Assembly: GCA_029260575.1 (NCBI GenBank)
Contig: JAJDDB010000028.1
Coordinates: 1-64,000, forward strand
Direction of reading: 5' to 3'
DNA from: Phycisphaerales bacterium
GTDB lineage: Bacteria > Planctomycetota > Phycisphaerae > Phycisphaerales > SM1A02
DNA length: 64,000 nt
A program made the position numbers and the translations under genes. The stretch's first letter is position 1. Every line of letters starts with the position of its first letter. Of this stretch, positions 2 through 56,239 are shown in pieces. Below the pieces are notes generated by a model, which was not told where the DNA came from, ran no database searches, and saw nothing but the letters and a program-made list of their open reading frames with translations.

Positions 2-598
2 TACGTGCCTGTGCAGTCTGCGGAGTCGCGCACTCCCGCACTCATTCAGCACAAGGATGCCGTTCGCGCCAGCGCTGAAGCGAGTTTGCGCGTCTATGCG
101 CGGCTGATTCGCGCCAATGCGGGTATTGGCAATGATGATCGGGTGGCGCTTGGACTGAGCGTTGACAATCGATCGCGAGCGCGCATTGCTGCGCCGGCCT
201 CTGCGCCGCTGCTCAATGTGGTGTGCGCGTTTCCGGGCAGTCACCAGTTGCGGTTTGCCGATGAGAACACGCCGAACTCCCGGGCCAAGCCGCGAGGTGT
301 GACCAATCTCTGGCTGGCGATGGCGATCAGTGACTATGGATGTCCGACGCCGAACGATCCGAACGCCGCAATGATGGTCGGCGCGTTCACGAAACAGCCT
401 GCGTATGTCGAGCATGAAATCAAAGATGCAGGCAAGACTGCGACGTATTTCGGCAGGTGGGCGACGGCGCGAGGTCTGCTCGGGCCGTGGTCGCTGCCGC
501 GCAGTATGACGATCGTGGCAGGGGGAAGCGCTGCGCCGAGCGGAACGAAGCACCGGCAGGTCGAACCCGCACGTGAAAATCTGCGCAAGGCGGCATAG
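2..598 (+). CDS. Unknown protein, N-terminus cut by window edge
   Basis: The frame is open to the left edge and the codon before the first GTG (position 5) is a sense codon, so the true start probably lies outside the window. About 198 codons are visible. I do not recognise the family. A block near residues 147-166 is rich in Trp, Gly and Arg (FGRWATARGLLGPWSLP), and the tail is basic and Ala-rich. No membrane segment is seen in the visible part. proC begins 65 bp downstream on the same strand, so the two may be co-transcribed. Confidence 0.6.
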   Translation, partial: YVPVQSAESRTPALIQHKDAVRASAEASLRVYARLIRANAGIGNDDRVALGLSVDNRSRARIAAPASAPLLNVVCAFPGSHQLRFADENTPNSRAKPRGVTNLWLAMAISDYGCPTPNDPNAAMMVGAFTKQPAYVEHEIKDAGKTATYFGRWATARGLLGPWSLPRSMTIVAGGSAAPSGTKHRQVEPARENLRKAA

Positions 599-21260: not shown

Positions 21261-21332
21261 GAGCCGCGCCCGTCAGGAAGCGGGGACACCTCCGGCAAAC
21301 ACAGCGAACCCGCTCCCTTACGGTCGCAGCTC
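21261..21332. repeat. REP-like inverted pair
   Basis: Two 24-bp arms face each other: 21261-21284 begins GAGCCGCGCCCGTCAGG and 21309-21332 is its inverse complement with about 20 of 24 positions matching, separated by 24 bp. The core (GAGCCGCG.CCGT..GG.AGCGGG) resembles REP elements that occur in many copies in bacterial genomes, where facing pairs are known as BIMEs. No transposase of the RAYT type is in the window. Confidence 0.55.
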
Positions 21333-22730: not shown

Positions 22731-22961
22731 GACGTGACGCGCCGTTCGTACGAGGTTCCGCGACGCTCCGACGAGGTGACGAGCGTCTCGGAAGAGGTAG
22801 CGAGAGTCTCGTGAGAGGTCGGAAGAGTCTGCGAAGAGGTCGAGAGCCGCTCCGAAGAGGTTCGCCGTCGTTGCGAAGAGGTCGAGAGCGTCTCGGAAGA
22901 GGTCGGGAGAGTTTCCGAAGAGGTCGGGAGCGTCTCGGAAGAGGTCGAGAGAGTCTCTCGA
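22731..22961. repeat. Array A: eleven 21-bp degenerate palindromic repeats
   Basis: Eleven consecutive units of exactly 21 bp, without a single inserted or deleted base, starting at 22731, 22752, 22773 and so on to 22941. Ten of the eleven begin GAGGT (the first GACGT). A typical remainder is CGAGAGCGTCTCGGAA. Sequence varies a lot between units, but most keep a dyad centred near unit position 12-13: the last unit is a perfect 17-bp palindrome (8-bp arms TCGAGAGA and TCTCTCGA), the fourth has CGAGA.TCTCG, the seventh TTCGC..GCGAA. Intergenic. Because 21 is a multiple of 3, reading frames stay open on both strands, but none has a credible start. Confidence 0.85.
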
Positions 22962-23047
22962 CCTCGTTTCTGGTGCGGAAACCGCGATTTCAAAAGAACA
23001 GGCCGGACCTTGGAATTTCAGGGACAGGCACCATTTCGGATACGGAT
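22962..23047. other. Spacer between repeat arrays A and A-prime
   Basis: 86 bp without clear 21-bp units. It contains GGGACAGGCACCATTTC (about 23020-23036), a sequence type I know as widespread in intergenic regions of many genomes. It looks like an insertion that split one longer array: array length plus spacer keeps the phase to within 2 bp. Confidence 0.35.
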
Positions 23048-23131
23048 GAGGCATCGTGCGTATCCGACGGGGTGACCGACTCTTCGCACGAGGTAACGAG
23101 CCGTTCGTACGATGTTCCGCGACTCTCGGAA
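23048..23131. repeat. Array A-prime: four more 21-bp units
   Basis: Units at 23048, 23069, 23090 and 23111, again without indels, opening GAGGC, GGGGT, GAGGT and GATGT. The last unit has arms TTCCG and CGGAA with an inner GA/TC pair. The third has ACGA and TCGT arms. The first is spanned by a larger inverted repeat, CGGATACG..CGTATCCG (arms at about 23038 and 23057). These are the same family as array A. Confidence 0.7.
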
Positions 23132-23269
23132 CCTCACTCACAGCCCGTAAACCGTGTTTTGAGATATAGCATCCATTTGTGTTCTGTCGCGGCTCACGGC
23201 TGCACGCGGCCCGCCGATAACCGTTGCATCGCGGAACGCTCCGCGGAACGGGTGATGGGTGAGCGGTGA

Positions 23270-23690
23270 AGGAAATCCTGCGATGCGGCGGGCGGCTCGG
23301 TGTTCACGTATTTGGGCGAGACGCCGCCGAGCGAGATCGGCGAGTGGAAGTTCGAAAGCAGCACCACGCGGACAACGGTGGATGTGGAGATGCCCGCGAC
23401 CGTCGCAGCAGGAACAAAGGTCTGGCTGACTGCGTTCTGGTCCTGCTCCTGAAGAGAAACCAGAGAAGCCAAAGAAGGCGAAGCGCGCACCGCTCAAGCA
23501 CGACCCGAAGTATGTCGCAGCAGCGCGGGAATTGAAGGATCGTTATCTGGATGAAGTGAATTCGGGGCGCATGCTGCCGTGTGCGGATGGGAAGTACGAT
23601 GTGGCGAGGCAGTTGCAAGCAGCGCCGACGGTGTTTAAGACGAACAGTATTGAGACAGCTGAGGAAGTGCTCTTGCTTGATGCAGCGTGA
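23270..23690 (+). pseudogene. Frameshifted remnant of a planctomycete-type protein gene
   Basis: Two pieces of protein-like sequence in different frames. The first (23270-23452) reads GGSVFTYLGETPPSEIGEW..VWLTAFWSCS then stop. The second, in another frame and overlapping the first at about 23448, reads PEEKPEKPKKAKRAPLKHDP..AARELKDRYLDEVNSG..LLLDAA and ends at TGA 23690. The first piece resembles the C-terminal beta-domain common in planctomycete hypothetical proteins. No start codon with a ribosome-binding site is present, and a stop lies directly upstream. It may be one gene with a frameshift or two joined fragments. Confidence 0.45.
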
Positions 23691-55852: not shown

Positions 55853-55929
55853 TGCACGAGGTTTTTATGCGGACTGTGGCGCACGACAAACTGGTCATGC
55901 CGCGCCGAAACTGCGCGATTCTGACGGAA

Positions 55930-56160
55930 AAAGAGGTCTTTCTTCCGCGCACAGAGTTCTTTTCGCCGCGTAAAGAGTTCTTTCTTTGACGTAGGGACTT
56001 CTTTCCGCTTCGTTAAGGCGCGGCAACGCCGCAGAAAGAGTTCTTTCTTCAGCGAAAAGAGTTCCTTTCGGCGCATAAAGACATCCCTACTGGCCGTACT
56101 GACCTCTTTACGCGGCGTTCATACGCACTTCTCCGGCATAGGGAAGTCTTTTGGTCGCAG
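55930..56160. repeat. Array B: eleven 21-bp degenerate repeats
   Basis: Units start every 21 bp from 55930 to 56140 without indels; two weaker units may precede (from 55888). A typical unit is AAAGAGTTCTTT followed by CTTC, one variable base, GCG and one more base. The first half is an imperfect palindrome (AAAGA..TCTTT), kept in variants such as AGGGA..TCTTT through G-T pairs. The fifth unit has lost the motif and is itself a hairpin (GCGGC..GCCGC). Same period and copy number as array A; the two share AAGAG(G/T)TC. Intergenic, in a 507-bp gap. Confidence 0.8.
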
Positions 56161-56239
56161 AATCGCGCTTACACATGGAAAGAGTGGATACGCCGATCGA
56201 TGCGGCTTTGGCAGAGTCGGAGCACCTGTTCGGCTTCGT

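Follow-up and report, generated by a model that had tools for sequence, protein, structure and literature searches.

How can a tandem array whose letters have drifted far apart keep every unit at exactly the same length, and is that spacing tied to any function? Array A raises this question in the window, by which we mean the whole 64,000-nucleotide stretch analysed here, with which contig C28 of a draft genome of 4.1 Mb begins. The array and its immediate surroundings comprise the following features.

22731 to 22961, plus strand: array A, eleven 21-bp units with the dyad-symmetric consensus GAGGTcg.GaG.gtcTC.gAA
22941 to 22965, plus strand: terminal fold-back in the last unit of array A, with an 11-12 bp stem and a 1-3 nt loop
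23063 to 23130, plus strand: a further short run of related units, about three in number and of the GAGGTAACGAGCCGTTCGTAC type, not in phase with array A
23118 to 23160, plus strand: fold-back and tail, TTCCGCGAC.CTCGGAACCTCACTCACAGCCCG..AACCG.GTTT, common by alignment to the sister array on contig C27:440 kb
23270 to 23449, plus strand: C-terminal remnant of the array-linked family gene, with the N-terminal part missing

The original prediction described eleven units of exactly 21 bp, free of indels and nearly all opening with GAGGT, and our data bear this out. Unit starts fall at 22731 + 21n (n = 0..10) over 231 bp in all, ten of the eleven units begin with GAGGT and the first with GACGT, and mean pairwise unit identity is 0.66. 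Autocorrelation reaches 0.70 at lag 21 and again 0.70 at lag 42, with peaks at 21, 42 and 63 and weak ones at 11 and 31, and the seven-unit column score is 0.73 compared with at most 0.386 in composition-shuffled 20-kb pieces (periods 19-23). Array A is dyad-symmetric on its own (z 3.4, p 0.005). Its last unit forms a 25-bp near-perfect palindrome, GAGGTCGAGAGAGTCTCTCGACCTC (22941-22965), and the fold-back that closes the array is terminator-like; the units at 23063-23130 share 85% identity with array A over 47 bp. No sigma-70-like promoter was found near array A, and an Rfam scan of the whole window returned one tRNA only, array A having no match above the gathering score. Further upstream, the motif GCTCCCT.ACGGTCGC.GCTC occurs both in the window (~21308-21332) and in the relative G009 (L093:3175-3196); in G009 it merges gradually into a 21-bp expansion of recent origin.

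Array A is one of many such arrays in its genome. A census of 983 kb, with an array threshold of seven-unit column identity >=0.46, detected 18 arrays of period 21 together with one of period 20, three of period 18, one of period 27 and one of period 33, a density that is approximate because part of the sample (contigs C2, C3, C23 and part of C27) was picked for holding hits. The same scan also gave many matches at periods 12-15, which were taken unsorted. As judged with a simple codon-usage gene caller, repeats of 18, 27, 33 and 36 bp lie inside genes and strong period-21 arrays are nearly all intergenic. Period 21 is the predominant period among the intergenic arrays of this genome. Unit sequence varies between arrays. 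Array A has a single clear sister (C27:440 kb), and the arrays at C3:66 kb and C27:621 kb are 84% alike. Several individual arrays have peculiarities of their own. A lone intergenic array of similar style (L086:3978-4400, contig C27 ~304 kb) has period 20 and about 20 units; in another (L241:9783-10118, contig C27 ~670 kb) the opening units run in the opposite orientation to the others, and the 21-bp phase persists across the switch; four gene-less arrays (L089:8705, L071:3592, L090:9159 and L081:18982) lie 3' of genes that by eye end in PEP-CTERM-like sorting motifs; and an ORF that, by eye only, resembles a REP-associated transposase lies close to the array at C27:133 kb. The window itself holds a second array.

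55913 to 56168, no strand assigned: array B (units 55923-56153), the second period-21 array in the window, with no family gene detected nearby

The array B stretch is an indel-free imperfect 256-bp palindrome centred on 56040.5, with perfect GCGCGATTCTG ends, and its axis is the best of its kind within the window. We considered a long hairpin spanning the whole array as a general rule and rejected it, since the arrays show no excess over unit-order shuffles (Stouffer 0.7), array B being the exception. A transposon-like organization with terminal inverted repeats was likewise set aside, clear repeats being present only in array B.

Beyond this genome, matches to the GAGGT pattern in 60 relatives were mostly coding-heptad-like, and DNA and protein searches of plasmids returned nothing similar to the arrays or to the protein described below. 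Three Nostoc genomes (G061-G063), in which the protein family is absent, contain many period-21 arrays, with GAGGTACTTCAAAGTCGTGTT as one example of a unit, and very many period-7 arrays too, 52 of them in the 200 kb examined of one genome. No SbcD match above the family cut-off was found in the 61 relatives sampled, which possibly indicates a background tolerant of palindromes; loss of SbcCD as the cause of the arrays was rejected as non-discriminating, because all 61 genomes behaved alike.

The period-21 arrays are linked to a gene family. When sister genomes were searched with the region of another array, the adjoining gene was returned instead of the array, and each further copy of the gene so found had a different period-21 array upstream. 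In the present genome, a protein-profile search placed family members beside five arrays and the remnant beside array A, while 12 of the 18 arrays had no family gene detected within 1.8 kb. The remnant at 23270-23449 has 46% identity over 56 aa to the C2 member and 41% to the C27 member (tblastn 6e-10), and array A, judged by this similarity, stands 5' of a decayed family copy reduced to its C-terminal 60 codons. The window starts with a further member.

11 to 595, plus strand: another family member, 38% identical to the C27:105 kb member across 164 aa

The region upstream of this member is not visible because its 5' end is cut by the contig edge. An array-independent test of the linkage was obtained by searching the protein alignment against 294 genomes of the phylum, which returned 30 loci, 28 of them evaluable. 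A period-21 array was present 5' of the gene in 26 of the 28 (the exceptions are L361 and L369), in a set of which several loci came from genomes used to build the profile, and in all 26 period 21 was the best among periods 15-31. Arrays of this kind stood on the 3' side of the gene in about 4 loci, and the expectation by chance from the array density (18 per 983 kb) is about one locus in 28. The distance from array end to gene match has a median of 290 bp, the gene usually lying 40-600 bp downstream. Single loci in a WOR-3 MAG (L168) and a Tannerellaceae MAG (L139), both of which came solely via the GAGGT pattern, also have the gene with an array on its 5' side. The family numbers 22 copies here and 44, 40, 37 and 21 in four genomes of one sister genus, and is absent (zero copies) in 45 of 61 relatives. 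In genome G126, the ORF that follows the family gene at two loci (L362 and L371) apparently codes for tail-fibre-like repeats and is conserved with the gene over 1.49 kb.

The family protein, of about 220 aa, is predicted to fold into an N-terminal helical bundle and a C-terminal fibronectin-III (FN3) domain (mean pLDDT 89.6), the latter matching 4yfd (VIA-align Z 11.9, rmsd 2.0, 92 residues). Pfam, NCBIfam and PADLOC gave no family match for the protein, and a Foldseek search with only the helical domain (pLDDT 91) gave no significant relative in PDB or BFVD, a result that does not imply a novel fold. Because the helical domain lacks a significant match to solved structures, the fold gives no indication of DNA binding. 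The C-terminus of nearly all family members is -AA (or -AG), an ending that recalls a tag for degradation or sorting.

Arrays at the family loci have 6-14 units (median 10), unit identity within arrays is 40-70%, and what the units share is dyad symmetry, as in AAAGAGTTCTTT, GGGAACTCCC, GGAGCGCTCC and CTCGTACGAG. Measured against column-permuted arrays, this symmetry has a Stouffer z of 7.6 in 21 arrays of this order and of 6.2 in those from other phyla; the control, tiled intergenic 21-mers, gives a dyad z of 0.0. In 28 gene-oriented arrays, a set that partly overlaps the 21, the Stouffer value is 10.7. Two ideas had been put forward for array A, a transcribed string of hairpins and a binding array that presents the same helix face at every unit. 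The first found no specific support: in the 28 gene-oriented arrays dyad mismatches of the G-T and A-C types are about equally frequent (176 and 158), and the sense strand is the better folder in 12 of 28. This absence of strand preference points to DNA more than to RNA as the level at which the symmetry matters. The second idea is compatible with the dyad symmetry, as far as can be judged from the letters. The arrays also fold better than their column-permuted versions (Stouffer -9.6), and their intrinsic curvature is weak (Stouffer 2.9, from wedge angles). Covariation inside units was rejected as a general property (Stouffer 1.1; array A alone z 3.3), and a comparison of core and spacer conservation (31/36) was set aside as biased by the way the core was chosen. 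Finally, a 3-base phase test of within-unit variability gave a combined p of 0.98, and open frames in the arrays match the prediction from column composition, with no one frame open across arrays. The lack of 3-periodic variation, together with open frames at the level set by composition, shows that the arrays are not protein-coding.

Comparison of orthologous loci reveals how the arrays change. In the best-aligned pair, whose proteins are 86% identical, the array has accumulated 55 substitutions over 239 bp and two gaps, one of exactly 42 bp and one of exactly 21 bp; in the flanking stretch ahead of the gene the gaps measure 1, 1 and 4 bp. The other two pairs are weaker because their non-unit gaps lie at ragged edges or were split by the aligner: in the second, gaps of 1 and 4 occur where the array edge is ragged, and in the third the gaps are 4, 5 and 16, the last two of which sum to 21. 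The original prediction of a constraint on spacing is thus strengthened by the unit-sized gaps of the best pair and by the predominance of period 21 in intergenic arrays. Indels that break the phase in close relatives had been named as the observation that would speak against it; the best pair has none, and the two poorer pairs contain non-unit gaps, so that this part of the claim stands for the best pair only. Two paralogs of genome G126 that are 85% identical have the dyad core TGAAAGTTTC in common and differ in the other half-unit, and their nucleotide similarity begins at the gene start, so that the pairing of array and gene is one of position, with a faster turnover in the array.

The fixed 21-bp period, the dyad symmetry, the non-coding nature, the 5' placement before one family and the amplification of that family are established. 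The explanation that we favor, tentatively and at somewhat less than an even chance, regards the array as a multi-site element, helically phased and acting at the level of DNA, which controls the adjacent gene or is bound by its product. Array A would then represent the non-coding part, on the 5' side, of a gene-array module whose gene has decayed. Symmetric sites placed in a row exactly two helical turns apart could allow many dimers to load side by side on one face of the DNA, and the loaded array might control transcription of the adjacent gene, and the bound protein may be either the product of that same gene or a DNA-binding protein in shared use. Spacing would be kept while letters drift, and unit number would change by whole units. 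In favor of this reading are the 5' arrays at 26 of 28 protein-selected loci and in the two MAGs, the dyad symmetry with its lack of strand bias, the non-coding nature, the unit-sized gaps of the best orthologous pair and the dyad core common to the G126 paralogs. Several observations speak against a DNA element: 12 of 18 arrays here are gene-less, the period-21 arrays of Nostoc occur without the family, the family loci L361 and L369 have no array, the gene of array A has been lost, and the search near array A gave no sigma-70-like promoter. A single sequence-specific binder is further opposed by the unit sequences of paralogs, which differ beyond the tolerance expected of such a protein. Our confidence in the DNA-element reading is limited by the many gene-less arrays and by a fold without a hint of DNA binding. 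A broader proposal, which we regard as somewhat doubtful, is a previously undescribed, phylum-spanning system in which each genome encodes dozens of paralogous helical-FN3 proteins, each paired with a separate array of palindromic 21-bp units 5' of its gene, conserved in spacing and locus-specific in sequence, and in which each protein would recognize its cognate array.

The strongest rival is a non-adaptive, length-ruled process, in which fold-back-assisted slippage or template switching makes and symmetrizes tandem copies with a preferred length of two helical turns, much as in the fixed-length heptamer arrays of cyanobacteria, and the gene inserts beside them or is carried along. It would account for the many gene-less arrays, for near-identical paralogs with partly different arrays and nucleotide similarity from the gene start, for inverted units within one array (C27:670 kb) and terminal fold-backs, and for the period-7 and period-21 arrays of many sequences in Nostoc; the lack of SbcD matches over the cut-off in 61 genomes may provide a permissive background. 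However, a 5' position in 26 of 28 loci is far too regular for such a process, and the best orthologous array has no non-unit gaps despite its 55 substitutions, and we consider this account rather unlikely. An RNA element appears clearly unlikely. According to this model, transcription of the array would yield a string of repeat RNAs which bind and restrain the downstream protein, or are processed by it, in the manner of type III toxin-antitoxin systems. Type III loci do share the gene order, with repeats immediately 5' of a gene for a small protein and a repeat sequence that varies by locus (PMC4627078); the arrays fold better than column-permuted ones, and a terminator-like fold-back closes array A. 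Nevertheless, the dyads show neither a clear excess of G-U over A-C nor a sense-strand advantage, the units are too diverged for one inhibitor RNA, and the protein contains an FN3 domain and is matched by neither PADLOC nor Pfam.

Orthologs differ by whole units, and up to 44 members per genome, nearly all of those examined with an array of their own, could form a set of copy-number switches, the unit number upstream tuning the expression of each paralog as in contingency loci with promoter tandem repeats; a unit identity of 40-70% slows slippage, however, and makes this improbable. Highly improbable is the proposal that the arrays encode heptapeptide-repeat proteins. It starts from 21 bp being a multiple of three, equal to seven codons, and from several frames that are open through individual arrays, and it conflicts with the absence of 3-periodic variability, with open frames at the level predicted by composition and no single frame open across arrays, and with the location of the arrays between genes.

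If the pairing envisaged by the DNA-element reading is functional, a family of about 40 copies per genome that is invisible to Pfam, NCBIfam and PADLOC would carry a built-in, locus-specific DNA address readable from sequence, and direct tests would become possible. It would also offer a handle on an older puzzle, that of bacterial intergenic repeats favoring unit lengths such as 7 bp. If it is not, the arrays remain a clear example of a repeat process governed by length and independent of sequence.

We found no description of this array class or of the gene-array pairing in the literature searched, and the arrays can be placed relative to several known systems. In type III toxin-antitoxin loci, tandem repeats upstream of the toxin gene encode an RNA antitoxin and the repeat sequence varies by locus (PMC4627078). 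The resemblance to these loci (ToxIN, CptIN, TenpIN) lies in the repeats directly 5' of a small protein gene, an arrangement seen in 26 of our 28 loci. In contrast to them, the arrays described here have 6-14 diverged units of fixed 21 bp and no strand-specific RNA signal, and the protein combines a helical bundle with FN3 and has no ribonuclease match. It has no sequence-family match to ToxN/AbiQ, and in structure matches FN3 in the C-terminal half only, the helical domain being unmatched. The short tandemly repeated repetitive (STRR) heptamer arrays of cyanobacteria and related heptamer repeats are intergenic and dispersed, with a fixed unit length and many unit sequences (PMC4692102, PMC4679880). 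Our arrays resemble them in being intergenic, dispersed, fixed in length and variable in sequence, and three heptamers make 21 bp; array A, however, has no 7-bp period, and a linked gene family is not described for heptamer repeats in the parts of these two reports that were consulted. With CRISPR the arrays share regularity and an adjoining protein family, but they consist of contiguous palindromic 21-bp units, without spacers and without a cas-like protein. Iterons of plasmid replicons are direct repeats about two helical turns apart, located 5' of a gene whose product may bind them; the family linked to our arrays, in contrast, has no Pfam or NCBIfam match to a replication initiator (Rep), reaches 44 copies per genome and is accompanied by units that are far more diverged. 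For each of the type III toxin-antitoxin, iteron and CRISPR classes, at least one defining feature is either absent from the arrays and their linked family or not demonstrable there. REP/BIME elements, associated with RAYT transposases, are intergenic palindromic repeats in which REP units are interspersed and have one common sequence, whereas the units of the arrays described here run head-to-tail and most arrays have a sequence of their own.
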